NCBI RefSeq assembly: GCF_000423585.1 | Contig: NZ_KE384058.1 | Coordinates: forward strand, 37,013-101,012 | Direction: 5' to 3' | Source: Salinimicrobium xinjiangense DSM 19287 | GTDB taxonomy: Bacteria > Bacteroidota > Bacteroidia > Flavobacteriales > Flavobacteriaceae | DNA: 64,000 nt | In this document: one piece after another, positions 8,505-36,160 of the stretch | Layout: each line of letters starts with the position of its first letter | Position numbering within the stretch: the stretch's first letter is position 1 | Position numbers and translations under genes: made by a program | The notes under the pieces: generated by a model | Told to the model about the DNA's origin: nothing | Seen by the model: only the letters and a program-made list of their open reading frames with translations | Database searches by the model: none

Positions 8505-8578
8505 GGCCTCGTGGCGCAACTGAATAGCGCATCTGATTACGGCTCAGAAGGTTACAGGTTTGAATCCTGTCGAGGTCA
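8505..8578 (+). tRNA. tRNA-Arg (anticodon ACG)
   Basis: A full cloverleaf folds by eye: acceptor GGCCTCG with CGAGGTC (one G-U pair), D stem GCGC/GCGC, anticodon stem TCTGA/TCAGA around loop TTACGGC, T stem ACAGG/CCTGT with TTTGAAT loop, discriminator A at 8578; CCA is not encoded. Anticodon ACG reads CGU (with A34 to I editing, also CGC/CGA). Its 3' end doubles as the integration site of the 27.6-kb element; the terminal 15 bases recur at 36146-36160. Confidence 0.95.
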
Positions 8579-8579
8579 C
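8565..8579 (+). other. attL (3' end of tRNA-Arg)
   Basis: TCCTGTCGAGGTCAC, the T-stem 3' strand and acceptor 3' strand of the tRNA, identical to 36146-36160. The first mismatches are at 8564/36145 and 8580/36161. Confidence 0.85.
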
Positions 8580-8789: not shown

Positions 8790-9518
8790 ATGAGTGAAAT
8801 TGATAAGATTTTTAAAGGCCTAGAAGAAACTTGTTACACATCCCTGTATTTCAAGGATGGTGATTATACCAAGATTAAACCAGAATATTTATTTACAACT
8901 CTAGTTGCTAAGCAATTTGCAACTCAAGAATCAGAATTTATTATAAAATTAGAAGAGCCAACTCAATCATTTGCAACTAACTGTGTTCCACAAGCTAATT
9001 CCCAATATAGATTTTCTAGTTTTAAAAATGTCTGTAGAAATGGTAAAATAGATATTGCCGTATATACAAATAAGCAACAGGATGGATACTTAAATGAATA
9101 TATGCCATTATTTCCTATTGAAATAAAAGGAGTAAATCCTCAAAAAGTTAAATTTACTCAAGATGTAAAAAGAAACCTAGAATATTTTTCTATTGAAGAT
9201 GAAAATACTGGTTCCTCAATTTTGAAACAAGCTTATAATATAGCAGTAGAAATTCCTCGCAGGTTTCTCTATGAGGAGGAAAAAGAATCTTTTGTAAATT
9301 CTGTCAAAAAGAAATATGAAAACTGGATTAAGGTTTTTGACCAAATCGCTTCAAGTTTAGGTTTAGACATCACTGTAGAAACGAGACCTATTTTAGATAG
9401 GCTGTACAAGGAATCCGATCAAATTAATCGAACTTATAATGAGACGGAATGGGATTTTTTTGATGATTGGCATTTGTACATCGGTGTAGTAGTTTCTATC
9501 AAAAAAGTTCAATTCTAA
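8790..9518 (+). CDS. PD-(D/E)XK nuclease-like protein, first gene of defence operon
   Basis: A 242-residue soluble protein I do not recognise as a named family. It shows the order of conserved residues of a PD-(D/E)XK nuclease: a Glu in an early helix (PEYLFTTLVAKQF, E32), then GKIDIAV (D88) and, on the next strand, FPIEIKG (E111, K113). The rest is a mixed alpha/beta C-terminal region. It lies 14 bases before the OLD-family gene on the same strand, with similar AT-rich base use, so the three genes probably form one operon. Likely a nuclease or nuclease-fold partner of the defence proteins; an inactive fold is possible. Function is inferred from motif and context only. Confidence 0.6.
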   Translation: MSEIDKIFKGLEETCYTSLYFKDGDYTKIKPEYLFTTLVAKQFATQESEFIIKLEEPTQSFATNCVPQANSQYRFSSFKNVCRNGKIDIAVYTNKQQDGYLNEYMPLFPIEIKGVNPQKVKFTQDVKRNLEYFSIEDENTGSSILKQAYNIAVEIPRRFLYEEEKESFVNSVKKKYENWIKVFDQIASSLGLDITVETRPILDRLYKESDQINRTYNETEWDFFDDWHLYIGVVVSIKKVQF

Positions 9519-9532
9519 ACTAGTAATTATAA

Positions 9533-11215
9533 ATGGCAAAAATTCATAATCTTAAAATATCGAATTTTAAAGGCCTTAAAAGGTTTGAACAAGTTTTCGG
9601 AATAACAGACTTCATTTGTTTAATAGGTAGAGGTGATTCGGGTAAAACTACCATACTCGAAGCAATCTCTGCCGTTCTTTCACCTAATTGGAACCTAAGT
9701 TTTTATGACTCTGATTTCCATAATGGAGATATTTCCAATCCTATAGAAATAGAGGTGTCTTTATACGATTTACCTGCCACACTTATTCGGGAATCCAAAT
9801 TTGGTCTCTTTATACGGGGATTAAATGTAAAAACAAATAAAATAAGTGATGAAATTGAAGATGATCATGTATCTATTCTAACCGTAAAACTTATAGTCGA
9901 CAAAAATCTGGAACCTAAGTGGTATGTAATAAATAAAAGGGAAAGCCAACAACCCATTGAAATAAGAACAGGGGATAGAGCCAGTTTAAACGTTTTTCTG
10001 ATTTCTGACTATGTTGATGGACATTTTTCTTGGAGCAGAGGGAATCCATTAAATGCATTACTTAAAGAAGAAGAAACTACTACAGAGAAATCTAATGTTC
10101 TTATTGATGCTTTTAGAGAAGCGAAAGAAAAGATTGATTCAACATCCTTCAGTCATTTAGATAATGTTGTCCAAAAAATAAAGCTTTCGGCAACTGCATT
10201 AGGTGTTGATATAAATGATACTCAGACAACCATTGATTTTAAGAACATTGCCTTAAAAGATGGAAGAATTTCTCTCCATGACCATACTGTACCCTTTAGG
10301 CTAAAAGGGAAAGGTTCAAAAAGGCTCATTTCAATTGCAATACAACTCGAGGTTGCGAAGACGGGGGGAATATTGTTAATAGACGAGATAGAACAGGGTT
10401 TAGAACCGGATAGAGCTCAACATTTAGCAAGAGTTTTAAAGAAAAAGAATAAAGGGCAAGTATTTATCACGACCCATTCAAGGGATGTTTTAGTTGAATT
10501 GACAGCAGGTGATGTCTTCAAAATGAAGAAGGGAAACATAAACCTCCATTCCTTTGACTCGTCTCTTCAAGGTTGCATTAGGAGAAATCCGGAAGCGTTT
10601 TTTTCAGAACGAGTTTTAGTTTGCGAAGGTGCTACAGAAGTTGGTATTTGTAGAGGTATTAACAATTTTAGAATAGAAAAAGGTGATCCTAATGCTGCAC
10701 TTCTTGGGATAAGGTTTGCGGATGGACAGGGAGGTTCAAATCACGTTGAATACGCCAAAGCCTTTAAAAAATCCGGATATGATGTTTCTTTATTCTGCGA
10801 TTCAGATGTTCCAGAAATAAATAAAGTTAAACCCAAATTAGTAGAACTCGGAATAAGAGTAATTGACTGCGAAAACAGCAAATCGATAGAAAATCATTTA
10901 TTTGAAGATTTACCATGGGAAGCCGTGCTGAGTTTAGTTCAATATCGTATTAAGGAAAAAGGAGAGTCAAGCGTGCAGGATTCAATTGAATGGAGATATG
11001 ATGGAGATTTTCCTTACCAGTGGAGGTCCAATGATCATCCTGCAATTCGCGATGCAATTTACCAAGCGTCAGTGACAAAAAAGAAGGAGTGGTTTAAAAG
11101 GACTGATCACGGTGAATTTGTTGGGAGAATTATTTGTGAAAACAGCGATGCTATCAAGGAAAAAAAATTAGGTCAAATTTTTCAGGAATTATCTAACTGG
11201 ATGGAAAATGTTTAA
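9533..11215 (+). CDS. GajA-like OLD-family ATPase/TOPRIM endonuclease
   Basis: A 560-residue protein with an N-terminal ABC-type ATPase and C-terminal TOPRIM nuclease. Walker A is GRGDSGKTT (32-40), the signature region reads KGKGSKRLIS, Walker B is ILLIDEIEQG (D284, E285) and the H loop is FITTHSRD. TOPRIM motifs are LVCEGATE (E365), ADGQGGSNH and LFCDSDVP (D423, D425). Length and layout match GajA of Gabija anti-phage systems and other class 2 OLD nucleases, which nick or cut DNA when nucleotide levels fall. Its last 8 bases overlap the next gene, which encodes a UvrD-like helicase as in Gabija. Confidence 0.85.
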   Translation: MAKIHNLKISNFKGLKRFEQVFGITDFICLIGRGDSGKTTILEAISAVLSPNWNLSFYDSDFHNGDISNPIEIEVSLYDLPATLIRESKFGLFIRGLNVKTNKISDEIEDDHVSILTVKLIVDKNLEPKWYVINKRESQQPIEIRTGDRASLNVFLISDYVDGHFSWSRGNPLNALLKEEETTTEKSNVLIDAFREAKEKIDSTSFSHLDNVVQKIKLSATALGVDINDTQTTIDFKNIALKDGRISLHDHTVPFRLKGKGSKRLISIAIQLEVAKTGGILLIDEIEQGLEPDRAQHLARVLKKKNKGQVFITTHSRDVLVELTAGDVFKMKKGNINLHSFDSSLQGCIRRNPEAFFSERVLVCEGATEVGICRGINNFRIEKGDPNAALLGIRFADGQGGSNHVEYAKAFKKSGYDVSLFCDSDVPEINKVKPKLVELGIRVIDCENSKSIENHLFEDLPWEAVLSLVQYRIKEKGESSVQDSIEWRYDGDFPYQWRSNDHPAIRDAIYQASVTKKKEWFKRTDHGEFVGRIICENSDAIKEKKLGQIFQELSNWMENV

Positions 11216-12653
11216 TCATCTTGAATTTATTTCCAGGCACAAAAGCATGTTAATAGCCCCCGCAGGTTTTGGGAAAACACATACAATTGCAGAATGTCTG
11301 AAGACATTCGAAAAAGGAGATAAACAACTTATATTAACTCATACGCATGCAGGAGTAGCATCTATTAAGGAAAAAATAAAAAATGAGGGAATTTCAAGTT
11401 CTATCTGTGAGGTAGAAACTATAACAAGTTTTGCTCAAAAATACGTCTTAGCTTTTTATTTTAAAAATGATATTCCAGACCAAGATGATAGTAAAAATTA
11501 TTATTCATTTATTATAGAAAAAGCGATAGATCTATTTAAACTCAGTCCAATCCAACAGATAATTTCAACTACCTACAAAGGCTTATTTGTTGATGAATAT
11601 CAAGATTGTACTGTTAAACAGCATAACCTAATTCTTCTACTTTCAGAATTATTTCCTACTCATATTCTTGGGGATTTTCTTCAGGGAATTTTTGATTTTA
11701 ATGGAGAGCAACTTGTAGATCTAACCGATTCTCTAATGATGAGGGGATTTATAGAATCAAAATATGAATTGGACAAACCGCAGCGGTGGTTAAATGGGAA
11801 TAATGCTTTTTTAGGTGCTGACTTGAAGAGCCTAAGAGAGGTGCTTATTGATCAAAAGGAAGTAGATTTTAGGAAATATAATTCGTTTGAATTGAAACTG
11901 ATTTCTGAGAGAGATTTATATAATCCCCGAACAGAATATTGTCGGCAGATAAGGAGTCTAATGAAAGAAAAGAGTATTCTTTTACTGCATCCGGATTCAA
12001 CTAGTGTTTATCCTCGTCTAAATATTATAAAAATGTTTAACAATGAGTTTACTTTAGTGGAATCTATTGATGATAAGGAATTCTATGTCCTATCCAAAGA
12101 GTGCGATTTACTGAGTAGAGAAAATGTGCGAATCAAGTTATTTGTCTTTTGTAAAAAGATATTTAATAAAACAGGAGTTGCCAACTGGTTAAATGAAAAG
12201 GGTTTAAAAAGAAAAATTAAACAAGAGGATAAGGAGTTACTCGAGCCTATAGAAGCTATTATTTCTTTTCTAGAAAAGGAATATTCACACTATAAGTATG
12301 CTCAATTATTAAAGAAATTAAAAACATTACCTGGCATAAAATGTTATAGAAGAGAACTTTTTAATACTCTTTGTATTGCACTTGAAGACGCCGAAAATGA
12401 CGAAATTTCTGTTTTCGACTCAATGAAAAATAAAAGGAATCAAACACGTAGGATCGGAAGAAAAATATATGGTAAATCGATTGGTACCACACTCTTAACA
12501 AAGGGATTGGAATTTGATACAGTAGCAATTATAAATGCACATAAATTTAATTGTCCTAAACATCTATACGTTGCTATGACTAGAGCATCTAAACGATTAG
12601 TTATATTTTCAAATAAAGCAAAGATCCATTTTGACAGTGACAATAACTTTTAA
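11208..12653 (+). CDS. GajB-like UvrD-family helicase
   Basis: A 481-residue superfamily 1A helicase, the size of GajB. Motif I is APAGFGKT (17-24), Ia LTHTHAG, II VDEYQD (129-133), III LGDFLQGIF, V TKGLEFD and VI YVAMTRASKR. All core helicase motifs look intact, while the 1B/2B insertions are short compared with full UvrD (about 720 residues), as in GajB. The ATG lies inside the end of the OLD gene, indicating coupled translation. In Gabija the helicase partner assembles with GajA tetramers and contributes to phage DNA degradation. Confidence 0.82.
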   Translation: MFNHLEFISRHKSMLIAPAGFGKTHTIAECLKTFEKGDKQLILTHTHAGVASIKEKIKNEGISSSICEVETITSFAQKYVLAFYFKNDIPDQDDSKNYYSFIIEKAIDLFKLSPIQQIISTTYKGLFVDEYQDCTVKQHNLILLLSELFPTHILGDFLQGIFDFNGEQLVDLTDSLMMRGFIESKYELDKPQRWLNGNNAFLGADLKSLREVLIDQKEVDFRKYNSFELKLISERDLYNPRTEYCRQIRSLMKEKSILLLHPDSTSVYPRLNIIKMFNNEFTLVESIDDKEFYVLSKECDLLSRENVRIKLFVFCKKIFNKTGVANWLNEKGLKRKIKQEDKELLEPIEAIISFLEKEYSHYKYAQLLKKLKTLPGIKCYRRELFNTLCIALEDAENDEISVFDSMKNKRNQTRRIGRKIYGKSIGTTLLTKGLEFDTVAIINAHKFNCPKHLYVAMTRASKRLVIFSNKAKIHFDSDNNF

Positions 12654-12690
12654 TTTTACTAAAGCGCACCAATTTTAGCAATTGCCAATT

Positions 12691-13644
12691 TCAGGCGTAA
12701 ATCGTTCTCACCCTCCATATCCTCAAAATGTAATCCGCAATATCCCATCCCTCTTGTTTCTGGTCTGCAGTAGCTTTTTTCTCCACAAGATCAGAAATGA
12801 AGTACTTGATATTGGGCGGCAGATCAGCAACTTTCTCGTTCCAGGTACCATGACAGCCGGCATCGGGAAAAAGTATCACTTCCCGGTTCGCTAAAGGTTT
12901 GAGCATTGAGGCTTTGAGATTCATTAAACCTCCGGTAGCCATCCAAATAAATTGAGGGTAGGCAATAGAGGCGATTACAGCTGTTTTCTCACTCTCCACT
13001 ATAGCGATTGCCTTTTGCTTATCAGAATTCAGCAGGTGAAGCCCAAAGAGGCACTGCTTGAGATTAAAATCCTGGAGCTTCAAGACTGAATGAACCCAGT
13101 TCACTTTCTTTTTCTTTCCCGTGAGTCTGTTGTATAACATCATTTTCCCGGTCCGGACTTTATTCTGCTCGTCAGTTTGCCAGAAGACAGTCGCTCCTTT
13201 CCATTTTTTGGAAGTGCCTATCTTGTACTTTCCCATTACTTCTGCTATGGCAGCATTGCCTATAAAAGATTCCAGAAATATTAGAAAGTTATTCGGGTGT
13301 GATCCTTCGAGGCTTTTAAGAAACAATTCTTCATCAATAAAAGAGGCCGGTTGCGTTTTTTGTTTTGCCCGAAAAGCCACCTGCCTTAAAACTGCAGGAT
13401 TTATGGTTGTGTTCTGGTGCGAATGATCAATTGAAAAAGATGTCTGACTCTGGAAGAACTCTTTCGGAGTTAGGTGATAGCCGCATTTTTGCTCCCTATC
13501 GCATTTGCCAACTTCTAATCCAACGTACTCTTTTTTTTCCTCGTCAATATACCGCGTAAATGTATGTTTCTCACCACAGGAGGGGCATTCATACCTGTTC
13601 TTTGAGGAGATGTAAGGTTCTAAGGTAAATCTATATTGGGACAT
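12691..13644 (-). CDS. Zinc-finger/TOPRIM primase-like protein (DUF6371 type)
   Basis: A 317-residue protein. It starts with a zinc ribbon (YECPSCGEKHTF then CDREQKCGYH, about 18-56), like the CHC2 end of DnaG-type primases, and later shows TOPRIM-like motifs AIVESEKTAVIAS and VILFPDAG. This matches the DUF6371/toprim proteins often found in Bacteroidota mobile elements beside P4-type helicases. It probably acts in element replication. It lies downstream of the P4-type primase gene on the same strand, separated by a strong hairpin, and converges on the defence operon with a 37-base gap. Confidence 0.72.
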   Translation of the reverse strand: MSQYRFTLEPYISSKNRYECPSCGEKHTFTRYIDEEKKEYVGLEVGKCDREQKCGYHLTPKEFFQSQTSFSIDHSHQNTTINPAVLRQVAFRAKQKTQPASFIDEELFLKSLEGSHPNNFLIFLESFIGNAAIAEVMGKYKIGTSKKWKGATVFWQTDEQNKVRTGKMMLYNRLTGKKKKVNWVHSVLKLQDFNLKQCLFGLHLLNSDKQKAIAIVESEKTAVIASIAYPQFIWMATGGLMNLKASMLKPLANREVILFPDAGCHGTWNEKVADLPPNIKYFISDLVEKKATADQKQEGWDIADYILRIWRVRTIYA

Positions 13645-13673
13645 AAAAAGGTTTTAAATGACTTGCATTAAGA

Positions 13674-13704
13674 ACACCTTCTACACTGTTAGTGTAGAAG
13701 GTGT
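13674..13704. repeat. Perfect 14-bp inverted repeat with 3-base loop
   Basis: ACACCTTCTACACT, loop GTT, then AGTGTAGAAGGTGT. It lies between the stop of the primase/helicase gene (13713) and the start of the TOPRIM gene (13644). There is no T run on either side, so it is not a typical terminator. It could be a retained mRNA hairpin, a protein-binding site or a replication signal. Confidence 0.7.
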
Positions 13705-13712
13705 ATAAAATG

Positions 13713-15419
13713 TTACTCTTCAGAAACTTTTTTTTCTGCAAAAACTACCCATCCGGTGTTTTTGCGATCTGTTTCAAAACCCCCATTTTCGAGACGTTTT
13801 CTGAAAGTGCGATCGGAACATGGTCGGTTGGTGTTTTCAAGGCAATACTGTCGGTATTCCTGATATAACTCCTTCAACTTAATTTCCTCAGTACAGGATT
13901 TATGGTAATCATTATCATCAATAAAGCTTAACACGGAATCACTTTCCCTTCTAAATTTATTCACTTCCTCTTCCACAATTGTGCTGGAGGTAAACTTCTT
14001 CTTTTCCAGTAATCGAAGCATACCTACCAGAATCCAGTTAAATATACCCGGTAATTCCTGTCTGATTATTTTGGTAGAAAGGTTTTTATCTTGCCTCTCT
14101 TCCGGAATGGTTACTCGAAAAGGAATGATCAGAAATCGTCTAAAGAATGCGTGGTTGTGCTCAATGTCCGTAGGAAGTTCATTGGCATTAAACATCAGTT
14201 TGGCATAGTCACGCATAATAAACGATTGCTTGTAAACCTGACGGACATCTATTGGCTCCCTGGAAACTAATTTCTTAAAGATTTCCGATTGAACTGAAGT
14301 ACTTGTTTCACTGCAGTAGTTAAGAAGCTTATCCGATATCATAGATCGGGAATCCTTGTCTTTAGTAAGACTGTCCAGGCTATAACTCGAAAAGTTTTCT
14401 TCTCCCAGTAGAGCACTTATGATATCGAAAATGACACTTTTTCCATTGGATCCACCACCATATAAGAACAAGGCTTTTTCAAGCTTCAGTACGTTATTCT
14501 TGATAAAAATTGAACCGAGATATTCAGAAAGTATATCCTGCAATTCCTTGTCTGGTATAACTTCATCTAAAAACCTAGAGAAGAGAGTCATATTTGCAGT
14601 TTCCTCATATTCGAAAGGTAATTGGTAGGTGAGAAAATCTTCCTTTCGGAATTCTCTTAGCTGCTGAACATCTTCCGAAATCTCAAAAGTTCCGTTTTGG
14701 AGGTTGATTAAGGTTACCTGTTTATTATCAGCTAAAGACGTCTGAAGTTTACCCTCGCCCGCAAATTGTTTAAACAGGTCGTCTTTGAATCTATAATATT
14801 TCGCTTCAAGCTTCCCAGCTCCCATTTTTAAAGCAGCTTCCCCCAGAAAATACCGAAATTCCTCTTCATCCACTTTTTCCCAGTATCTCTTATTGAATAA
14901 GTAGATTAAGCCATTTCTGAATATAATATCTAATTCAAGCTCCCTTGCTTTTTCTATAATAAACTGGATGCTTAGAACAACGTAATATTTGCGCGGCAAA
15001 GGCTTTTCATTATCCATCCATTCTGCTTCAGTTTCAAAATCCTTCAACTCCAGATTTTGCAGGATGAAATCCAGATTATTGGAGAGGGTAATCTTTTTTT
15101 CTAATTGCTCTGCTTCATTCACTAAATCTTCAATCGTGATGTTGTCCTCTGCAGTTGAATCACCGTTGCAACCGTCTAATTGCTTTTCGGTTGATTCACT
15201 GTTGCAACTGTCGTCATTAATTGCAGTTGAATCCAGCGGTTGTTGAGCGGTTGAGCCGTTGTTTGGCAGTATTTTTTCATCATTTTTATCCGCTTTTTTG
15301 TCTTTGGTACCGTTGGAGAAATGGGTCTTATTTTCCTTTTCATCGGCACCTTTTTTTGGTGTGAATTTACCTTTTAGAGAAGAATTGTTCTCGTGATTTT
15401 TTTTCTGTAAATTTGACAT
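13713..15419 (-). CDS. P4-family primase/helicase (D5_N, DUF5906 type)
   Basis: A 568-residue replication protein. The C-terminal part (about 275-480) is a superfamily 3 helicase: Walker A LYGGGSNGKSVIFD, then DKLLNYCSETS, LMFNANELP and FFRRFLIIPF, the hallmarks of phage/plasmid P4-type primases. Residues about 110-270 fit the D5_N region. The N-terminal 100 residues are low-complexity, rich in K, N, S, D, and contain a 12-residue repeat. It likely unwinds DNA at the element's origin after or during excision. It is followed by the TOPRIM primase-like gene and preceded by an HTH gene. Confidence 0.85.
   Translation of the reverse strand: MSNLQKKNHENNSSLKGKFTPKKGADEKENKTHFSNGTKDKKADKNDEKILPNNGSTAQQPLDSTAINDDSCNSESTEKQLDGCNGDSTAEDNITIEDLVNEAEQLEKKITLSNNLDFILQNLELKDFETEAEWMDNEKPLPRKYYVVLSIQFIIEKARELELDIIFRNGLIYLFNKRYWEKVDEEEFRYFLGEAALKMGAGKLEAKYYRFKDDLFKQFAGEGKLQTSLADNKQVTLINLQNGTFEISEDVQQLREFRKEDFLTYQLPFEYEETANMTLFSRFLDEVIPDKELQDILSEYLGSIFIKNNVLKLEKALFLYGGGSNGKSVIFDIISALLGEENFSSYSLDSLTKDKDSRSMISDKLLNYCSETSTSVQSEIFKKLVSREPIDVRQVYKQSFIMRDYAKLMFNANELPTDIEHNHAFFRRFLIIPFRVTIPEERQDKNLSTKIIRQELPGIFNWILVGMLRLLEKKKFTSSTIVEEEVNKFRRESDSVLSFIDDNDYHKSCTEEIKLKELYQEYRQYCLENTNRPCSDRTFRKRLENGGFETDRKNTGWVVFAEKKVSEE
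15154..15237. repeat. 36-bp direct repeat inside the primase gene
   Basis: Two 23-bp copies at 15154-15176 and 15190-15212 start with GTTGA(A/T)TCAC and share the palindrome GTTGCAAC; a third, shorter copy starts at 15226. Spacing is 36 bp, so the frame is kept and the protein gains a 12-residue imperfect repeat. Confidence 0.6.
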
Positions 15420-15463
15420 AACAAATAATAGAGATTATTTCCGGACTGCGAATCCGGGAGTTA

Positions 15464-17013: not shown

Positions 17014-20000
17014 CTATATTTTACCTCCAACACCCTTAAACTTCTCGACAAATGAAGCAATTTTCTGAAATACGGTCTGCTTTTTTGTCAAATACTGTGG
17101 GTTTAATGGACTCATTTTCGGTAACACAGCATTAAGTGCTGTTCCATTTTCACTGGCATATTCCCGTTTTAAAGAAGCTGTTATATATCTTTTTGCTTCT
17201 TCTTCGTTTAGATCTTCATCCTTAATGATTTCAGATGCCTCTTTTTTCTGTTTGCTTTGTGCATAAGCGAAAAATGCATCTATAACACTTGCTTTTTCCT
17301 GAATTTCATCAAGGTCTGTTTCGTTAATAAAATCGACTACCAGACCCTCCTTGGCTCTACTGCCAACACTGGCACGAATGACCCGGCGGATCTCTTCAAT
17401 CAAGGAAGCTTTGTCTTTGTTCTTTTTGTTGTGCTCAAAAATAAGCTCAAGAATATAATCCAGGTTGATCTCCTGTGATTTAAGCAGGTCTATTTCAAAG
17501 ACGACATCATTCCAATCAATATCTGACTCTTCGGCTTCCTTCCCTTTGTTCTCACGTCTTAGCCAGTCACGAATATCATTATAGGTAGATCGATAATCCT
17601 GCACCGTTCTCTCCGGCAGCACTTCGATCTTTTGCATTGCCGCTATATCTTCATCTGACACAAAATGAGCCTCTTTAAAAGCTTCAACGGCTTCTGGATC
17701 TTTTAGGTCTATTTCCTGAAGAGTTTTGAGGTTGACAAATTCATCGTAGTTCTGCAAAATGTTTTCGACACGTAGGTATTCTCCAAACAGCTTTGAAAAC
17801 TCCTTTTTATCATTTTCTGTGGCTATCTCGTCAGGATTAGGGAATTTCTCATTGAGCTCTTTCACCACATCTGTATAACCTCTTCGGGCTTCTCCGGTGA
17901 CAATATCAGTAAAGCCTTCCAAATACTCCTGGTAGCTCTTTTCAAGGACAATATTTTTAGTGTTCTTGTCCCCGAAGAGCGTAATCGCATCAATGGTAGG
18001 TTGCTCCAGATCACGAAAAGTTATGATATTCCCAAAAGTTTTTGTAGCGTCATAAATACGGTTGGTACGGGAAAAAGCCTGCATTAACCCATGATAGCGA
18101 AGATTCTTATCTACAAACAAGGTATTGAGGGTGGGAGCATCAAAACCAGTTAAGAACATCCCTACTACTATTAGCAGGTCAACTTCCTTATTCTTTACCC
18201 GCTTCGCCAGGTCACGATAATAGTTCTGGAATTCTTTGCTTTCAACTCCATAACTGGTTTTGAACATGGCGTTATAGTCATTGATAGCTTTGGTTAGAAA
18301 CTCCTTTGCACTGCTGTCCATGGCAGACGGTTCAAAGCTTTCATCTAGTATCTCCCCAATGGCACTCTGCTCTTCATTGGCAGCAAAGGAAAAGATAGTA
18401 GCTATTCTTATTGGCTTCTCATTGTCTTTCTGGAGCTGATTCAGCTCCTCGTAATATAATTTAGCCGCATCTACACTACTGACGGCAAACATGGCATTAA
18501 AACCGCTGTTTCCGCTTCTGGTCCGATGTGTTTTCTGGCGGTAGTTATCTAATATGTACTGAGAAATTTCCCTGATTCTTGTAGGGTGAAGTAGAGCTTT
18601 TTGGTTTTCTGCTGCACTTAACTTTTTTTCATCAATCTCTGTCTCTATACCTTTAAAGTGGGGGCGTACATCATTATAATCCACCTTAAATTTCAGCACC
18701 TTTTCATCCCTGATGGCATCTGTTATCACATAAGAATGAAGCTCCCGACCAAATACACTGGCAGTAGTTTCTGAACCTAAGGCATTTTGAGGAAAAATGG
18801 GCGTTCCCGTAAAGCCAAACTGATAGTATTTTTTGAACTTCTTTTTCAGATTCTTCTGTGCTTCCCCAAATTGTGATCGATGAGCTTCATCAAAAATGAA
18901 AACCACCTGTTTTTGATAAACGGTCAGGTCATTCTCACTTTTCATTAGGTTATTCAGTTTCTGAATCGTTGTGACAATGATCTTGTTATCATCTTTGTCA
19001 ATATTCCTCTTTAGACCTGCAGTACTGTCGGATCCATTCACACTATCAGGCGAAAAACGCTGATACTCTTTCATGGTTTGATAGTCTAAATCCTTGCGGT
19101 CCACCACGAAGAATACTTTATCAATAAAATTAAGTTGTGTGGCCAATCGTGCCGCTTTAAAACTGGTCAGGGTTTTACCGGAACCGGTGGTGTGCCATAT
19201 ATATCCGCCCCCCTCTGAAGAAGTCCATTTTTTAGTTTGATAAGAGCTTTCGATCTTCCACAGGATCCTTTCAGTGGCGGCAATTTGATAAGGTCGCATT
19301 ACGAGAAGCGTGTCACTGGTATCAAATACAGAATAATTGAGCAGGATATGTAAAAGGGTATTTTTCTGAAAGAATGTAGCCGTAAAATCCTTCAGGTCCT
19401 TGATCAGCGTATTGTCAGCCCTGGCCCAGTTCATGGTAAAGTCGAAGCTGTTTTTATTTCGCTCTACGGTGTTGGCAAAATAACGGGTGTCGGTACCATT
19501 GGAGATGACAAAGACCTGTAAGAACTTGAAGAGGGAAGCATTGGTGTTAAAACTCTCCTTTGAGTACCGATGTACCTGATTAAAGGCCTCCCGGATTGCC
19601 ACCCCACGTTTTTTTAGTTCTACCTGCACCAGGGGCAGACCGTTTACCAGGATAGTGACATCATAACGATTGGCATGAATTCCTTTTTGTTCAAATTGGG
19701 AAATTACCTGCACCTTATTGCGGGCAATATTTTTTTTGTCAACAAGGTAGATGTTTTGAATATTGCCATCATCAAAGACGAAATCGTAAATATAGTCATC
19801 GTGCAATTTTCTTGTTTTATCAACCAGGTTATCGCTTGGCTTATCTAAATACTCCTCTACAAAACGAGCCCATTCCCCATCTGCAAACACCATGTTATTC
19901 ATCGTCTGAAGCTGTACTCTTGCATTGGCAAGCATTGCTTTCATAGAAGTAAGGTTCGGACTTTCATAACCCTGGTTGATCAGATCCTGAACGAATTCCC

Positions 20001-20118
20001 GCTCCAGTGCCACCTCCGTTTGGTAAACAGCAGGAGCTTCGTTGGCTTCAGAGAACTTGGTGTATTTATCTAAAACAATAAAATTGTTGGATTCAGCTAT
20101 GGTGTTATAGGTACTCAT
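17014..20118 (-). CDS. hsdR: Type I restriction enzyme R subunit (HsdR)
   Basis: A 1034-residue motor/nuclease subunit of normal length. The N-terminal nuclease domain shows YDVTILVN (D153) and VQVELKKRG (E167, K169). The superfamily 2 translocase follows with Walker A TGSGKT (311-316) and FIFDEAHRS (D410-H413), then [12 protein letters not shown] and [10 protein letters not shown] of the second RecA-like domain. The C-terminal helical region binds HsdM. It translocates on and cuts DNA lacking the host methylation. The ATG overlaps the stop of hsdS by 4 bases. Confidence 0.95.
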
Positions 20119-21353
20119 GCGGGCTCTTGTTGTGGGAATGTTAATAACATATCCCGGTAATATTTATACTGCTTTTTCCTTAGTTCTATCTCCTTTGGAA
20201 GACTCTCGCTGATGGAATGAGTGAGAGTGTCGAATTTGTCGAGGATGGAGACTATTCGTTCTTGTTCTTCTTTTGATGGTACTGGGATGATGACCTTACT
20301 TAATCCTTTTGAGTTAATAGCAGAAATTTTTCCCGATGAAATATGTCTCCTTATTTGGTCATGAAACTGCTTTGTACGGGTAAAATACGCTACGTATTTT
20401 GGGTGCAGAGGGCTTCTGTATGAAAAACACGCATCATGAATCACAACACCTTCATCACCTAACCAAGCTGTTCCTTTTCCAATGTCTTCAATCGTTTCAC
20501 CAGCAGCAACAATAACAATATCTCCTTTTTTAGCTACTCTTAATTTTTTCTTCTCAACGAGTTCTTTACTTACAAAAGATTTCGTTTCATCTGCCCAAGT
20601 GCCATAATGTGTGTACATTTCACCATAATGAATAGTTGGTACCCCTTCAGAGATTAAATCGGTTCTTACAAATCGTTTCCCTCTTTGAAATTCACCAATT
20701 TCATTTAATGATTTCCACTCAACTTCAGACTCTTCAAAACTGAACAATTGCTCTCGATAGTACCAATACTGATTTTTACGTGCGTTAAGCTCTGTTGTTA
20801 GCTCTGCAGTTAGGTCTGTTGTTTGTTTTGTAAACACTTCTAAAATACGGACAATCTCTTTTTGGACTTTGAGAGGTGGGATGGGGATTTGTAAAGACTT
20901 GATAATGTCTGCATTTAAGTTGCTGACTGAACTACTATTTATTTTACTTAGCCAGTAATCTTGAACAATTTCGGATGTGAGATAAAGAAATAAATAATCA
21001 GAATTAAGCTTATCTCCAAAATCACTAATAGAAGCCCAGCCATCATGAATGGCTCCATTAATCTTAAGAATATATGGCCGGCCATAACTCATCGAATTAG
21101 ACATAATTAAATCACCTTTTTTCAATATTCTTGATTTTTTAGCTCCTTCAAATGTGATTTTTTGTTTTGTCTTATTAACATATTTTGAATTAGGTACAGT
21201 GTCTCCGATTTTTATCCAAGGAACACCATTTTTATCATCCGTGATAAATTTCGCTATAGGACGAGGTGACGCACCTCTTTGGATTTTTGCAACCTCACCA
21301 AAATTCTCCCACTGAACTTCAACCCCCTCTAATAATTTCTCTAAATAACTCAT
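20115..21353 (-). CDS. hsdS: Type I restriction-modification specificity subunit (HsdS)
   Basis: A 412-residue subunit with two target-recognition domains (about 14-165 and 215-370), each followed by a conserved helix; the paired spacer ends [12 protein letters not shown] and [12 protein letters not shown] show the internal repeat expected of HsdS. The two domains read the halves of a bipartite target, which cannot be deduced from sequence alone. Overlaps hsdM and hsdR by 4 bases at its two ends, so all three are translationally coupled. Confidence 0.93.
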
Positions 21354-22897
21354 GCTTCAATCTCCTTTATAATAGCGTCAATATTCAAACGAAGTGAATT
21401 TATCTTCTCTACAGTTCTGGAAACCTCTTCATTCAATACAGCTATATCAATCTTCTCACGATTATCCTTTGGGGCAACATAGGAGCTTACAGAGAGATTA
21501 TAATCGTTTGCGGCAATTTTGTTGTTGTCTATAGATTTTACTACATGCTCAATATCCTGTTTGCTATCGAACATTTTAATAATACTTTCAATGTGTTTAT
21601 CTGTAAGCACATTGTTATTCGTGACTTTCTTGAAGAAATCTTCACTATTCACATCAATAAACTGTGTTTTGGTGCCAATTTTATGTTTTGATAGCACTAG
21701 AATATTAACCGCTATTGATGTACCATAAAATAAATTTGGAGCTAAGGAAATAATGGTCTCTACATAGTTATTATCTACCAAATACTTTCTAATTTTCTGT
21801 TCGGCACCGCCACGATAGAAGATACCAGGAAAACATACGATGGCTGCTCTACCTTTACTAGATAGGTAATGCAGTGAATGTAGTACAAAAGCAAAATCGG
21901 CTTTTGATTTAGGAGCAAGCACACCGGCAGGAGCAAAACGGTCATCATTGATCATGGTTGGGTCATCATCACCGATCCACTTTACCGAATAGGGAGGGTT
22001 TGATACTATGGCATCAAAGGGTTTTTCATCCGCTAACTGTGGGTCTTTAAGTGTGTCTCCTAATACTAAATGAAACTTGTCGTAATTGATGTTATGTAAA
22101 AACATATTCATACGAGCCAAGTTATATGTGGTGTGGTTCACCTCCTGTCCAAAGAAACCTTCCTCAATAATATGGTTGTCAAAATGCTTTTTAGCTTGTA
22201 AGAGCAAAGAGCCTGAGCCTGCTGCAGGGTCGTAAATTTTGTTTACGGTTGTCTGCCCGTGCATGGCCAATTGTGCAATAAGTTTAGATACGTGCTGAGG
22301 GGTGAAAAACTCACCTCCCGATTTTCCGGCATTGGCAGCATAATTGGAAATCAGGAATTCATAGGCATCGCCAAAAAGGTCGATCTGGTTTTCTTCAAAT
22401 CTCCCAAAGTTCAACGCTTCCACGCCTTTTAGCACTGCTGCCAGACGACTGTTCTTGTTTTCAACGGTATTCCCCAGTCGGGAACTGGTGGTGTCAAAAT
22501 CGGCAAACAATCCTTTTATATCTGATTCGGACGGATACCCATTCGCAGAGCTTTCAATAGCGTCAAAAATGGATTTTAAATCGGTGTTTAGATTGGAATT
22601 GGTGTTGGCTGTTTTGGCAACGTTCGCGAAAAGCTGACTTGGATATATAAAATACCCCTTAGTTTTAATGGCATCATCCTTTATTTCGGGGGTTATGACA
22701 TCATCTGATAATGTTGCATAATTCACTCTCTCATCGCCGGCTTCTATATAATTTGAAAAGTTTTCACTGATAAAGCGGTAGAAAAGTGTTCCTAAAACAA
22801 ATTGTTTAAAATCCCATCCATCCACCGAGCCACGAACATCGTTGGCTATTCTCCATATTTTTGCTTGTAATTCTGCTCTTTGATTTGTACTTGTCAT
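21350..22897 (-). CDS. hsdM: Type I restriction-modification methyltransferase (HsdM)
   Basis: A 515-residue N6-adenine methyltransferase. The N-terminal helical domain (about 1-160) is followed by GEFFTP, SAM-binding [10 protein letters not shown] (about 222-230) and catalytic [10 protein letters not shown] (NPPY at 300-303). It methylates the target set by HsdS and protects the host genome. First gene of the hsdM-hsdS-hsdR operon; its upstream region holds the phased ACCGTT array about 200 bases away. Confidence 0.95.
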
Positions 22898-24739: not shown

Positions 24740-27700
24740 ATGCCTAAAAACTCCCCCCATAATAATCCGATCCTGGAACTCTCCGAAAACAAGTTCCCGG
24801 TGGTAGGGGTTGGGGCTTCAGCCGGCGGCCTTTCTGCTTTTAAAGAATTTGTGGGTGGAATTCCAGAAAATTCCGGAATGGCCTATGTGTTGGTGCAACA
24901 TTTAGATCCCAGTCATGAAAGTATGCTTTCTGAAATTTTACAGAAATCTACCCCCTTACCCGTGCTTGAGATCACAGATGACATAAAAGTAAGGCCAGAT
25001 CATATTTATATTATCCCCAGCAACAAGATGCTTCTAGCAAGTGACGGGGTATTAATGTTGAGCCAACGACCGGCACCTGAAAAAAATAAAAAAAATCTTC
25101 CCATAGATCTTTTTTTTAATTCTCTTGCTGTTATTCATGGGTCACACAGTCTGGGCGTTGTCCTTTCGGGCACCGCCAGTGACGGCACCCAGGGTCTCAA
25201 GGATATTAAGAGTAAGGGCGGGATTACATTTGCCCAGGATGAAAGTTCTGCAGAATGGCCGCAAATGCCAAACAGTGCAATTAATGCGGGAGCTGTAGAT
25301 TTTATTCTACCCCCCTCCGAAATCCCAAAAAAAATATTAGATCTAATTAAGAATAAAAATCCTAAAATTCAGGGACAACAGGGTTTTAGTGATGAAAAAG
25401 ATGGAACTTTTCAGCAGATCCTTTCCTTAATTCGGTTGCGTCGCAATACTGATTTCACCTATTATAAAGAAAATACCATTAAGCGAAGAATTCTGCGGAG
25501 AATGGTCATTAAAAAGTATAAAAGCCCCGAGGCCTATCATAAATTTTTACTGGAAAACTCCAAGGAAATTGATTTGTTGTATCAGGATTTACTAATTCCC
25601 GTCACCAGCTTTTTTAGAGATACCCATGTTTTTGAAAATTTGTGCCAGTCCATTTTGCCGCTTTTAATTGAGAAAAAAAAGGAGAGTGAACCTATCAGGG
25701 TATGGATTGCAGGCTGCAGCACCGGGCAAGAAGCCTATTCTTTAGCAATTTGTATTCATGAACAGTTGAGGAAGCACAGGTCCCACAATCCTAAAAAGAT
25801 CAACAATTTAAATGGATTTACCAGTGATGTGCAAGTTTTTGCTTCAGATATTAGCGAACCAGCAATTTCATTTGCCCGAAAGGGAATTTATAAAGAGAAA
25901 GATGTTGAAAATATTAGTCCCGAACGTTTACAGGAATACTTCATTAAATATGACGAGGGCTATCAAATAAAAAAAGAGATACGGGAAAGTTGCGTCTTTG
26001 CAATACAAAATTTCCTGAAAGATCCTCCTTTTGGAAATATGGACTTGATTAGCTGTCGCAACGTTCTTATTTATTTACAACCTTACCTTCAGAAAAAAGC
26101 TCTAACCACTTTTCATTATTCTCTTAAGCAGGATGGCTACCTCTTATTAGGGAAATCTGAAAATGTGGGAAGTGTACCAGGATATTTTACAGACATCGAT
26201 AAAAAAGTGAAACTTTTCAAAAAAAATAATATTCCTGAATCCTTTAATATTCCCACCGGAATCAGAAATAACGCAAAAAAACAGGAGTTCAAAGTAAATA
26301 AACCTACTCCTGTTAAACGAACTGATTTTCAAGGGACTGCAGATGAGATTCTTTTAAAAAAATATACTCCAGCCAGCGTAGTTATAAATGAAGCAATGGA
26401 TATTGTGCTTTTTAGAGGCGGCACTTCTAATTATCTGGAGCAGCAAAGTGGTTCACCCAGTCATAATCTGATGAAAATGGCAAAGCCCGGGTTAGCTTTT
26501 GAATTGCGAAATATAATTCACAAAGTAAAAAAAGATGGAAAGCCTTTAAAGAAGAATCATATTTTCACTCATCAAAATGGAGACCGGCAACCAATCACGG
26601 TAGAAGCCATGGTTTTGCCCAAACTGGTCGACCCCCATTACTTAATAGTTCTTCAGCCTTCAGTTGACACCCTAAAAAAACCGGATAAAGTGCAAGGTTC
26701 TTCCAAAATAGATGAAAAGGATTTGCGTATAAAGGAGCTGGAAAATGAGCTGGCACAAAGCCGGGAAGATATGCTCGGCATTACACAGGAGCAGGAAGCT
26801 GTTAATGAGGAATTGCAAAGCGCGAATGAAGAATTTATGAGTGGGAGCGAGGAATTGCAAAGCCTTAATGAAGAGCTCGAAACCAGTAAAGAAGAATTGC
26901 AGAGCACCAATGAAGAATTAACGGTAACCAATCAGGAACTAGGCACACTCAATTTTCAGCTTACCGAAGAAAGGAATTTTGCACGTGCGATTATAAATAC
27001 TACCCGTCAACCTTTAATTGTTTTAAATGGGGAACTGGAAGTGATTACTTCCAATAAAGCTTTTCATGAAGCCTATTGTGATAAATCTGGATATACAGAA
27101 GGTAAAAGGTTGTATGAGCTTAACAACAATCTGTGGGATATTCCCAAGGTGCGGGAATTGTTGGAATCGATCTTACCCAAAGACAAGGTTGTCGAAAATT
27201 TTGAGGTCGTTCATAATTTTAAAAGAATCGGGGAGCGTTCAATGATCTTGAACGCTATGGAGATAGGGGATAATAACTTAAAGAATAATTTAATCCTTCT
27301 ATCAATAGAAGATATCACTGAACGTAAGGTGATGGCAAGGAAATTAGAAGACACTCAGCATCAATATAAAGAAATGATATATTCCTCACCATCATTAATT
27401 GCTATTCTAAACGGACCTGAATTCAGAATATCCATTGCCAATGAGCCTTTCCTTAATCAATTTGGGAAAGGTGAGGATATAATAGGAGCCTCTTACTTAG
27501 AAGCGGTTCCGGAACTGGTAGACCAAGGCCTTGGAAAGATCTTAAGGGAAGTGTATAAAACCGGGGAACCCCAATATGTCCATGAAACGCCTGTAAAGAT
27601 TATACGCAATGGAAAACAGGAGCTGCTTTATTACAACTTTGGATATCAGGCTCAGCGTAATTCCAAAGGGGGTATTGAAGGTGTGGCTATTCTCGCAAAC

Positions 27701-28804
27701 GAGGTTACTGCCCAGGCAGAGTTAAATAAAACCATCAAGGAAAGTGAAAGTCGCTTTCATCAAATGGCAGATCTTACTCCCGAAAAAATCATCTGTACAG
27801 ATACCTCGGGGGAAATATATTATTTCAATAAAAGCTGGTTGGATTTTACAGGATTGAACCAGGAGTTATTAATAGCAAAAGGCTGGGAACAATTCATGCA
27901 CCCGGAGGAAATAACTACTACGCGCAGGAAATGGAAACAATGTATCGCATCTGGAAATGCTTTTGAAAAGGAAATTCGTTTGCGGGACAAAAATGATATT
28001 TATAAATGGCATTTAAGTCGGGCTGTACCGGTTAAAGACGAGGATGGAAAAATTAAAATGTGGATTGGTGCGCTTACTCAAATTCATAAGATAAAGGAGG
28101 AAGAAGAACGTAAGGAAAGTTTCCTTAAACTGGCAAGTCATGAACTTAAAACTCCTATAACCTCTATCAAGGGTTATACACAATTCCTGCTGGAAAGGCT
28201 CAGGGAATCCAAAGAGGTCCTGCCGGGATCTATTCCTATTATTCCTTCTCTGGAACGCATCGACAGTCAGGTCACAAGATTAACCAGGTTGATATCTGAG
28301 ATGCTGGACCTCTCGAGGGTTCAGGAAAGTAAACTTTCATTACAGAAGGAAAGCTTCAGCTTAAACCAAATGGTGGAAGAAAGTGTACAGGATGTTCAAT
28401 ATTCCAGTTCCTCAGCAAAAATCAAAATAGATCACAAAGACCAACTCATGGTTAATGGGGATAGGGATAGAATCAGCCAGGTCCTAATCAATTTGATCAC
28501 TAACGCAATTAAATATTCCCCAAATAATAAAAATATTGAAGTTAAAGTATTTCAGGAAGGAAAAGATAAAGCCTGTGTTAGTGTAAAAGATCAAGGGATA
28601 GGAATCGATCGGGTAGATCAGAAAAACATTTTTAAAAGATTTTTTAGAGTTACAGGGAAAGATGAACAAACCTATTCCGGTTTAGGTATTGGTTTATATT
28701 TAGCTAAGGAAATTATGATTCGCCACAATGGAAATCTCAAGGTTAAAAGTGAGAAGGGAGAAGGTTCAGTATTTACTTTTTCACTTCCTCTGGATAAAAT
28801 ATAA
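24740..28804 (+). CDS. CheB-CheR-PAS-histidine kinase fusion
   Basis: A 1354-residue cytoplasmic signalling protein. Residues about 20-205 are a CheB methylesterase domain with the triad GASAGG (S27), QHLDP (H54) and ASDGT (D148). About 225-500 is a CheR methyltransferase (FTYYKENTIKRRI, IAGCSTGQEAYS). A long coiled coil (about 670-760; EELQSxNEEL repeats) leads to three PAS domains (about 765-870, 880-1000, 1010-1120), HisKA (ASHELKTPIT, H1134) and a complete HATPase (N box NLITNAIKYS, KDQGIGID, GLGIGLYLA). There is no receiver; a receiver gene follows 140 bases downstream. Its role outside flagellar chemotaxis is usually stress or light signalling. Confidence 0.9.
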   Translation: MPKNSPHNNPILELSENKFPVVGVGASAGGLSAFKEFVGGIPENSGMAYVLVQHLDPSHESMLSEILQKSTPLPVLEITDDIKVRPDHIYIIPSNKMLLASDGVLMLSQRPAPEKNKKNLPIDLFFNSLAVIHGSHSLGVVLSGTASDGTQGLKDIKSKGGITFAQDESSAEWPQMPNSAINAGAVDFILPPSEIPKKILDLIKNKNPKIQGQQGFSDEKDGTFQQILSLIRLRRNTDFTYYKENTIKRRILRRMVIKKYKSPEAYHKFLLENSKEIDLLYQDLLIPVTSFFRDTHVFENLCQSILPLLIEKKKESEPIRVWIAGCSTGQEAYSLAICIHEQLRKHRSHNPKKINNLNGFTSDVQVFASDISEPAISFARKGIYKEKDVENISPERLQEYFIKYDEGYQIKKEIRESCVFAIQNFLKDPPFGNMDLISCRNVLIYLQPYLQKKALTTFHYSLKQDGYLLLGKSENVGSVPGYFTDIDKKVKLFKKNNIPESFNIPTGIRNNAKKQEFKVNKPTPVKRTDFQGTADEILLKKYTPASVVINEAMDIVLFRGGTSNYLEQQSGSPSHNLMKMAKPGLAFELRNIIHKVKKDGKPLKKNHIFTHQNGDRQPITVEAMVLPKLVDPHYLIVLQPSVDTLKKPDKVQGSSKIDEKDLRIKELENELAQSREDMLGITQEQEAVNEELQSANEEFMSGSEELQSLNEELETSKEELQSTNEELTVTNQELGTLNFQLTEERNFARAIINTTRQPLIVLNGELEVITSNKAFHEAYCDKSGYTEGKRLYELNNNLWDIPKVRELLESILPKDKVVENFEVVHNFKRIGERSMILNAMEIGDNNLKNNLILLSIEDITERKVMARKLEDTQHQYKEMIYSSPSLIAILNGPEFRISIANEPFLNQFGKGEDIIGASYLEAVPELVDQGLGKILREVYKTGEPQYVHETPVKIIRNGKQELLYYNFGYQAQRNSKGGIEGVAILANEVTAQAELNKTIKESESRFHQMADLTPEKIICTDTSGEIYYFNKSWLDFTGLNQELLIAKGWEQFMHPEEITTTRRKWKQCIASGNAFEKEIRLRDKNDIYKWHLSRAVPVKDEDGKIKMWIGALTQIHKIKEEEERKESFLKLASHELKTPITSIKGYTQFLLERLRESKEVLPGSIPIIPSLERIDSQVTRLTRLISEMLDLSRVQESKLSLQKESFSLNQMVEESVQDVQYSSSSAKIKIDHKDQLMVNGDRDRISQVLINLITNAIKYSPNNKNIEVKVFQEGKDKACVSVKDQGIGIDRVDQKNIFKRFFRVTGKDEQTYSGLGIGLYLAKEIMIRHNGNLKVKSEKGEGSVFTFSLPLDKI

Positions 28805-30459: not shown

Positions 30460-30870
30460 TTATACTCTTGTAGCTATGAAATTCCTCAACATTCCTTTTA
30501 TTACCCCTTGAACATCTGGGCTAATTCCCTTTAATGGTTCCAAATATTCTGGAGGTAATCCTGGATTGTATTTTTGTCCCTCAGGGATTACTGTTGCTCT
30601 GTAATGATCATATGAGCCTTTTTGTATGTCTCGATCTATTACTGTAATAATGCCATAATGACGCGGATCATTCTGAATTTTGTTCCATAGACTAATTATT
30701 TTTTCTTTTTCTCCTTCTATTACTTGAAAAAAATTTCCTTCAGAATATAGCAGGATTCCTTTTATATCCTTCTGGTTGTTATTCTCTTCGGAAAACTTTA
30801 AAAGCTCATTTATTTCTGAAGTAGTCAACTGCTTATCAGCATTGCTTACATAGCAAACGGCATGTCTCAT
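30460..30870 (-). CDS. BLUF-domain blue-light sensor
   Basis: A 136-residue protein, one BLUF domain (about 1-95) plus a short helical tail. The flavin-site Tyr (CYVS, Y7), Asn (NNNQKDIKG, N31/N32) and Gln (FFQVIEGE, Q49) are in place, so FAD binding and the light-driven hydrogen-bond switch are plausible. On the last strand the usual Trp and Met are not seen (DHYRATVIPEG instead of the WSMGF pattern), so output coupling may be unusual. It has no effector domain and must signal through a partner, perhaps the neighbouring PAS kinases or CheB. Confidence 0.88.
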   Translation of the reverse strand: MRHAVCYVSNADKQLTTSEINELLKFSEENNNQKDIKGILLYSEGNFFQVIEGEKEKIISLWNKIQNDPRHYGIITVIDRDIQKGSYDHYRATVIPEGQKYNPGLPPEYLEPLKGISPDVQGVIKGMLRNFIATRV

Positions 30871-34710: not shown

Positions 34711-35976
34711 TTAATTAAAAAAGACATGTCCAGATATTTTCTCTAGTCTTTCCATGGGTGAAGCTTTAATGTAGTTATAAAAGACCTTTTCAGAAGAATG
34801 CCCGCTAATAGCCATGATGTCGATGATAGGCATATCAGCTTTATAGGCATTGGTACAAAAGCTTCGTCTGGCGGTGTGATTGGTTAAGAGTTGATGTTTT
34901 TTAAATGCAGTTTTGGTGCGGATTCCACCTTCAGTACGTTCAATAATAATTTCCTCATTGAGTTTGGCTTTTTTCCCAATGCTCTTTAGGGCCTCATTGA
35001 TCTTTTGCTCCGGAATCATTTCAGGGAACTGCCCGTCCCTCTTTTTCAGAATGTCTTTTATAAATGGATGAAGTGGGATGTGCACTATTTTACCTGTCTT
35101 CTGTGTTTTAATTTCCAAATAGCTGATGCCTCTAAAGGCTTTAATGTTTGAAGTTGATAGGCTTTTGTAATCAGATACTCTTAAACCAGTTACTGCAGCT
35201 ATGACAAAAAGATCTCGGGCAATATCTAAATGTGGGCGCTTTGAGTAATTAATTTCCTTGATGCTTTTTATTTCATCCATTGTGAGGTAAATGTGGTTCA
35301 CCTCCTCTTTGGGTTTGGTAAAGGCTGATTTTTGATAGTCCAGGCTTTTGTGAAGCCCTCTTTCAAAAGCATCATGCATGACCGTCTTAATGTTCTTTAT
35401 TTGGGTTCCAATGTAATTGTCGGTAAATCCTTTGTCCTGTAGCCATTGGATGAATTCGGAATGAAAAGAGAGGGTGATGTGCTGAAAAGCCAATTTACCA
35501 CCTATATGTTCCTCATAATCTTCAAGAATTCGTAGGGTATTATTGTAGGGCTTTAGAGTACTTTTTGCAAGAGGTTTCCCAGTGCTTGGTCGCGGTTTGC
35601 TCTTGTAGTATTCATTAAACCACTTATAATGGTCTGACAAGTAAACTGCCTCTCTGTTATCTCCGCTTTTGTTCTGCCATTGATTGATCCGCTGCTTAAG
35701 GATCCTGTTATCAATAGGGGAATCTTCTTTCTCTAAATCCCTAAGCAGCTGACGGGAAAAAGTCAGAAGCTCAGCCAGGTCTGCATTAATATTACTGCTA
35801 TCGGGTTCCGCTAATACGTTCTTTACTGCATTATTTTGTTCATCCCAATGTGCAGCCTTCTTGATACTCAATCCAGTTGCATATCGGTACTGTTTTTTGC
35901 GGCCATAATTGAAATGAATGTAGATATTCTGAACAGTTCCTTTCCCCTCGCGAAGTTTTACTTTTACAGATCCCAT
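34711..35976 (-). CDS. Tyrosine recombinase (island integrase)
   Basis: A 421-residue site-specific integrase of the Bacteroidota type. N-terminal arm-binding domain (about 1-105), SAM-like core-binding domain (about 110-215), catalytic domain (about 225-421). Catalytic residues: R266 (TGLRVSD), a Lys in KTQKTGK, H367-x-x-R370 (NHTARRSF), H393 (SGHSS) and Tyr402 (or Tyr400) in FYNYIK. It lies 170 bases inside the right att repeat and is transcribed inward. It should integrate the element into the 3' end of tRNA-Arg(ACG). Confidence 0.93.
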   Translation of the reverse strand: MGSVKVKLREGKGTVQNIYIHFNYGRKKQYRYATGLSIKKAAHWDEQNNAVKNVLAEPDSSNINADLAELLTFSRQLLRDLEKEDSPIDNRILKQRINQWQNKSGDNREAVYLSDHYKWFNEYYKSKPRPSTGKPLAKSTLKPYNNTLRILEDYEEHIGGKLAFQHITLSFHSEFIQWLQDKGFTDNYIGTQIKNIKTVMHDAFERGLHKSLDYQKSAFTKPKEEVNHIYLTMDEIKSIKEINYSKRPHLDIARDLFVIAAVTGLRVSDYKSLSTSNIKAFRGISYLEIKTQKTGKIVHIPLHPFIKDILKKRDGQFPEMIPEQKINEALKSIGKKAKLNEEIIIERTEGGIRTKTAFKKHQLLTNHTARRSFCTNAYKADMPIIDIMAISGHSSEKVFYNYIKASPMERLEKISGHVFFN

Positions 35977-36145: not shown

Positions 36146-36160
36146 TCCTGTCGAGGTCAC
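36146..36160 (+). other. attR (15-bp direct repeat of tRNA-Arg 3' end)
   Basis: TCCTGTCGAGGTCAC, identical to 8565-8579. It is not preceded by a tRNA body, showing that the tRNA was restored at the left end. Confidence 0.85.

Follow-up and report, generated by a model that had tools for sequence, protein, structure and literature searches.

We analyzed a 64,000-nucleotide stretch of the Salinimicrobium xinjiangense DSM 19287 genome (contig NZ_KE384058.1; "the window"), in which three open reading frames (ORFs) sit just inside an integrated mobile element, at its tRNA-Arg end. We find that the first encodes a homolog of Tin from phage P2 and that the second and third encode a Gabija pair, GajA and GajB. 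The reading that we favor, with somewhat better than even confidence, is a defense operon of the mobile element in which a Tin effector directed at single-stranded DNA-binding protein (SSB) is stacked on an intact Gabija pair. This would be a new combination of known parts, and the point that is probably new is Tin as a PD-(D/E)XK protein. The three genes are as follows.

8790..9518, + strand: tin homolog, 242 amino acids (aa), with a predicted PD-(D/E)XK-type site formed by E32, (E55), D88, and E111-x-K113
9533..11215, + strand: gajA, 560 aa, OLD-family ABC ATPase plus TOPRIM nuclease
11208..12653, + strand: gajB, 481 aa, UvrD-like helicase

The product of the first gene matches the PADLOC Tin model PDLC02359 over nearly its full length (residues 4 to 239; E = 1.2e-43). 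When phage records were searched with it by tblastn, two records matched, both of them P2, with 25.6% identity to P2 tin at 89% coverage (E = 1e-6). It also matches PHROG 9821 (E = 7.5e-11), the family that P2 Tin itself matches at 3.8e-177, while a search of NCBIfam gave no match. By sequence homology, then, gene 1 is a homolog of P2 Tin. An orphan PD-(D/E)XK gene was also considered as its identity and is ruled out by the PADLOC and P2 Tin matches. An earlier sequence-only reading of this DNA missed the membership of gene 1 in this known family.

P2 Tin is reported to poison gp32, the single-stranded DNA-binding protein of T-even phages such as T4 (Mosig 1997, by its title as cited in PMC8987985), and this account is repeated in PMC8594841. 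In the latter, Tin was assayed as a system of its own and was active on all Tevenvirinae and on no other phage tested. Joint cloning of old and tin is reported to give broad protection (PMC9122126).

The predicted active site of Tin is conserved throughout the family. We aligned eight Tin proteins: those of the window, P2, an Escherichia coli prophage, Microbulbifer, Methylophilus, and the genomes G1159, G564, and G1355. G564 (72.8 bits) and G1355 (24.5 bits, PADLOC) are distant members, where the alignment is less sure. Pairwise identity is 19 to 46%, except within the P2-type group (71 to 83%), and only ten columns are invariant: E32, Y33, T36, E55, D88, I89, E111, K113, D125, and R128. These include all four residues of the nuclease-type pattern E32 / D88 / E111-x-K113 that the sequence-only reading had picked out in the window protein, so that a family-conserved E...D...ExK site of the PD-(D/E)XK kind is present in eight of eight Tins. 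A random draw of four among the 60 D/E/K residues would lie wholly within the six invariant ones with p = 3e-5, a value that was calculated post hoc from an alignment containing the window protein itself.

Structural comparison points in the same direction for P2 Tin. Its model is of moderate quality (pLDDT 67.6, pTM 0.70) and places E35, D103, and E121/K123 within a helix (34-47) and two strands (101-108 and 115-123). VIA-align of this model was run on 999 Foldseek chains and gave 50 rows, of which rows 1 to 15 bear the titles of restriction endonucleases, of restriction-endonuclease-like proteins, or of NucC, at 8 to 14% identity. The best row is 3ijm (Z 7.2, 120 residues, rmsd 4.1), followed by 9y1l (6.5), NucC (6.5), Bse634I (6.4), BamHI (6.4), and AgeI (6.2), although Z values below 8 may reflect a common arrangement. 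BamHI, Bse634I, and NucC are enzymes of the PD-(D/E)XK type. BsaWI, BstEII, NucC, and EcoRI also appear within the top twenty Foldseek rows for P2 Tin. At the sequence level, a Tin profile searched against the Protein Data Bank (PDB) gave a single row, a transcription factor at E = 0.7, and neither this profile nor Pfam matched Tin to any PD-(D/E)XK family. Since restriction-endonuclease folds give the best alignments to the P2 Tin model, we consider Tin a probable PD-(D/E)XK protein and regard a restriction-endonuclease-like fold as likely from the model. The model also lends some support to the alpha-beta-beta-beta-alpha-beta core of that superfamily, although its Foldseek matches are weak. 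That Tin cuts DNA is less likely than that it has this fold. The nuclease fold proposed for gene 1 by the sequence-only reading is supported on the P2 Tin model but not on the poor model of the window protein itself. Literature searches, which left out most subscription journals, returned no report of Tin as a nuclease and none of a three-gene Gabija.

Genes 2 and 3 form, by profile, an intact Gabija pair, as the sequence-only reading had proposed from their sizes, motifs, and overlap. GajA matches the PADLOC model PDLC04168 over residues 1 to 558 (E = 5.8e-183), with the PADLOC Old model at 3.4e-22, and exceeds the Pfam cut-offs for AAA_15, AAA_21, and OLD-like_TOPRIM. GajB matches PDLC04173 (E = 1e-130) and the Pfam UvrD N-terminal domain above cut-off, with UvrD C-terminal matches below it. 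GajA carries a Walker A motif GRGDSGKTT (from residue 32), TTHS (313), CEGATE (364), DSD (423), and WFK (520). The Bacillus cereus GajA requires E379, D511, and K541 (PMC8136825), which by our own mapping would correspond to E365, D423/D425, and K522 here. The locus combines an OLD ATPase and a TOPRIM domain having the E, DxD, and K residues with a UvrD-like helicase directly downstream. Among solved chains, phmmer with GajB found four GajB chains, 8sm3 among them, with E values between 2e-5 and 4e-5. The single GajA sequence found no GajA chain at E <= 0.001, and a three-row GajA profile reached both GajA (5e-13) and an OLD protein (1e-13).

The layout of the three genes is operon-like. All three ORFs are open and co-directional, with a gap of 14 nt between tin and gajA and an overlap of 8 nt between gajA and gajB; order, sizes, coordinates, and spacing agree with those in the sequence-only reading. 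The GC content is 0.302 for tin, 0.355 for gajA, and 0.310 for gajB, against 0.370 for the element and 0.421 and 0.411 for its flanks. Judged from spacing, co-transcription of tin with gajAB is supported but not proven.

We favor an operon in which two arms act side by side. Tin would engage the invader's SSB at the phage replication fork, as is reported for P2 Tin and T4 gp32, and would cut or block DNA there. GajA and GajB would act separately, on phage DNA ends left alone by a RecBCD-like enzyme of the host; Gabija has been proposed to act on linear DNA that RecBCD has not engaged, and OLD has been linked to recB/recC (PMC12407980). The two arms would thus be complementary, with Tin serving against SSB-dependent replication and GajAB against DNA ends, and would cover different phages under joint expression. 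P2 offers a parallel, with Old (acting on lambda) and Tin (acting on T-even phages) expressed together.

The element itself was recognized in the sequence-only reading as integrated at a tRNA att site, and this is borne out by a 15-bp repeat and a tyrosine integrase. Its features are as follows.

8505..8579, + strand: tRNA-Arg (ACG), the integration target, by ARAGORN (Rfam gives 8505-8578)
8565-8579: element end 1, the final 15 bases of tRNA-Arg, by repeat search
36146..36160, + strand: element end 2, a second copy of the 15-bp tRNA-Arg 3' end, by repeat search
34711..35976, - strand: tyrosine integrase of the element (Pfam Phage_int_SAM_5 and Phage_integrase)

The expected number of chance copies of the 15-mer in 64 kb is 5e-5. 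Rfam over positions 8000 to 37000 matched the tRNA alone. The same element carries a complete type I restriction-modification (R-M) system (hsdR, hsdS, and hsdM; 17014-22897, - strand), and Pfam identifies a D5_N/DUF5906 gene and a DUF6371 gene. Also within its borders are genes for a CheB-CheR-PAS histidine kinase (24740-28804) and for a BLUF blue-light sensor (30460-30870). By eye, additional regulator-like ORFs occur between 24740 and 33602, and this cargo is unusual.

Tin is rare. In the window's order, two of 296 genomes gave a match; that of G043 is a weak profile match with stops and is not counted as a context below. In the phylum, 2 of 395 genomes have Tin (the window's own and G564), by a scan that scored no more than six first-look candidates for each listed genome. 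In the class of Methylophilus, only Methylophilus itself has it (1 of 369 genomes), and in that phylum 3 of 398 genomes do, including Methylophilus and the weak G1355. By DNA similarity, tin is present in 17 of 5426 E. coli genomes. A tblastn search of 72,556 plasmid records with the window Tin gave one match, in Microbulbifer (29.2% identity, E = 5e-16). Among genome contigs, the window Tin searched singly found no relative, while the Tin alignment gave at least one match, Methylophilus. The window Tin, GajA, and GajB, each searched singly in viral contigs, found no relatives.

We distinguish eight Tin contexts, counting the window, where tin stands with gajAB. In the P2-type context, old immediately precedes tin in all 17 E. 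coli genomes that carry tin and also on three viral contigs (L043-L045). Of the 17 E. coli tins, 14 are at least 99% identical to P2 and hence are not independent cases; in two of the 17 genomes tin is annotated as two pieces. On another viral contig (L042/L046/L054), tin is split over two frames and lies between integrase and tail genes, and the 6.9 kb searched there contain neither an Old nor a Gaj match. On the Microbulbifer plasmid, 8 kb were searched to each side of tin, likewise without an Old or Gaj match; the TOPRIM gene located 2.8 kb upstream is of a primase-like type and not an OLD gene. In Methylophilus (L050, 7878-8642), tin is interrupted by a stop and the stretch searched has no Old or Gaj match; tin begins immediately after a gene that, by eye, resembles RsmE. 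G1159 (L062) has a P2-type tin approximately 3.3 kb from a type I-A retron on the opposite strand (reverse transcriptase, PtuA ATPase, and PtuB; 12285-15446, - strand), whose PtuA has weak matches only, to the ATPase part of Old (E = 0.001) and to GajA (E = 0.025). In G564 (L061, 8448-9218), the distant Tin gene belongs to a type I R-M operon, where it is set between hsdM and hsdS and overlaps both. A 1271-aa gene follows this hsdS, with a weak PADLOC Upx match only. In G1355 (L063), tin is about 1 kb behind an RmrA-like gene. Overall, an OLD-family neighbor is found in two of the eight contexts, gajAB in one, and a PADLOC-listed defense gene within about 7 kb of tin in five.

Approaching the question from the Gabija side, we detected GajA relatives in 294 plasmid records and read 12 of these loci, all from the 30 best rows, with flanks of 2.5 or 4 kb. 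An overlap of gajA with the gene that follows is a family trait, present at all 12 loci with a length of 4 to 14 nt and in eight cases of exactly 8 nt; gajB is broken in two (L048 and L068). None of the 12 has a Tin by profile. On two of the plasmids, a gene with no PADLOC match precedes gajA and is a possible Gabija add-on, one of 621 aa located 55 nt ahead (L070, 580-2445) and one of 461 aa located 39 nt ahead (L071, 1076-2461). The GajA alignment found one locus in viral contigs (L056), without Tin, and a search for GajA in phages found none at E 1e-10. Within the phylum sample, the nearest relative of GajA (G531) is on a contig that stops within gajA, leaving the upstream gene out of view. 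At the other Tin loci searched, the sole GajA match was the weak one of the PtuA gene, and there was no GajB match. In these limited samples, the order tin-gajA-gajB was found in the window only, and they do not establish an expanded type of Gabija with Tin as its mark. On this point the sequence-only reading, which stood as to the Gabija pair, the nuclease-type motif, the spacing, and the att element, is not supported: the lone plasmid Tin has no gajAB within 8 kb on either side, and the 12 Gabija loci read have no Tin. Because Tin is so rare, however, this co-occurrence test is weak.

Several results weigh against the operon of Tin stacked on Gabija that we favor. The window Tin model is poor (pLDDT 48.5, pTM 0.47), and its Foldseek rows are meaningless. 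The P2 Tin model has no Foldseek match in the PDB at E <= 0.001; its top row is an RNase P/MRP protein, methyltransferases are common in the top twenty, and the lower VIA-align rows include Rep15 (Z 5.7) and methyltransferases (4.3 to 5.1), within the range in which Z is a doubtful guide. No Pfam family matches the window Tin above cut-off, and five aligned Tins gave nothing better than E = 0.05. A simple pattern search found no promoter of Bacteroidota type upstream of tin, and an OLD-family neighbor was not found in six of the eight contexts, in the stretches examined. To our knowledge, there is no mapped gp32-binding residue for comparison. Tin could also be a nuclease-folded but non-cutting poison that binds SSB, its conserved residues holding metal or DNA. 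This is compatible with the other readings and agrees with the 1997 account, which by its title (cited in PMC8987985) describes poisoning of gp32, not cutting. Yet the full E/D/E-x-K set is invariant in all eight Tins, down to about 20% identity, and we consider a non-cutting Tin possible but doubtful.

The neighborhood itself might be accidental. Islands and the ends of elements accumulate defense genes, and tin may have happened to land before gajA, on an element that also bears a type I R-M system; other Tins lie near differing defense genes (type I R-M in L061, retron-PtuA-PtuB in L062, and RmrA in L063). The 14-nt spacing and the similarly low GC of tin, gajA, and gajB argue otherwise, and we regard such an accident as unlikely. 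The same spacing would fit the opposite view, that Tin is an integral third Gabija component that binds phage SSB and then either recruits GajAB or switches it on, with SSB as the trigger. Two lineages, that of P2 old-tin and that of the window, have tin beside an OLD-family gene, and phage SSB is the trigger of Retron-Eco8, an OLD system of class 3 (PMC12887533, PMC10568477), so that SSB input to OLD nucleases has precedent. However, tin-gajAB was found once and Tin at none of the plasmid Gabija loci read, the gene order is opposite to that of old-tin, Tin is active as its own system (PMC8594841), and most Tin contexts lack an OLD-family gene within the stretches examined. An integral role thus appears less probable still. 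By analogy, the two Tin-OLD pairings and Retron-Eco8 also suggest a bolder idea, which we rate as the most improbable of these: Tin would be a PD-(D/E)XK nuclease that reads phage SSB and acts as trigger or partner of OLD nucleases, of class 1 in P2 and class 2 here. The single tin-gajAB case and the mixed company of Tin elsewhere weigh against it. The purified Retron-Eco8 complex was also seen to cut DNA without SSB (PMC12887533). The OLD review (PMC10568477) does not bring up tin in its main text and calls class 1 OLD genes single, although an old-tin mRNA is named in the P2 record.

Tin is worth re-examining because P2 and a distant host retain the same small active site in it and because it has an OLD-family neighbor in two settings. 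If Tin cuts at SSB-coated forks or passes SSB recognition to Gabija, this would bear on two questions: how an OLD-family system discriminates between self and phage, and why old and tin occur as a pair. If Tin does read SSB for OLD nucleases, the gp32 "poison" of 1997 would be an enzyme, and SSB sensing would be a recurring input to these nucleases.

The locus shares parts with several known systems. Tin resembles PD-(D/E)XK enzymes (BamHI, Bse634I, and NucC) in its E/D/ExK residues and in the fold alignment of the P2 Tin model, but differs from them in sequence, with 8 to 14% identity in the top 15 rows and no sequence-level family match. Retron-Eco8 likewise has an OLD-family nuclease, and phage SSB, its reported trigger (PMC12887533, PMC10568477), is the reported target of Tin; in contrast to that system, the window element has no reverse transcriptase among the 15 distinct ORFs scanned with Pfam. 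Canonical Gabija agrees with the window in both genes and in their order, overlap, and motifs, whereas the window has an additional tin upstream and sequences far from the solved B. cereus proteins, GajA being reached by profile only. The P2 arrangement places old, a class 1 OLD gene with no helicase gene adjacent, 174 nt before tin, while in the window tin comes first, the OLD gene is of class 2 (GajA), gajB follows, and the two Tins are about 26% identical. P2 old-tin and the window nevertheless share a Tin homolog beside an OLD-family ATPase-TOPRIM gene on the same strand, and the P2 record names an old-tin mRNA.

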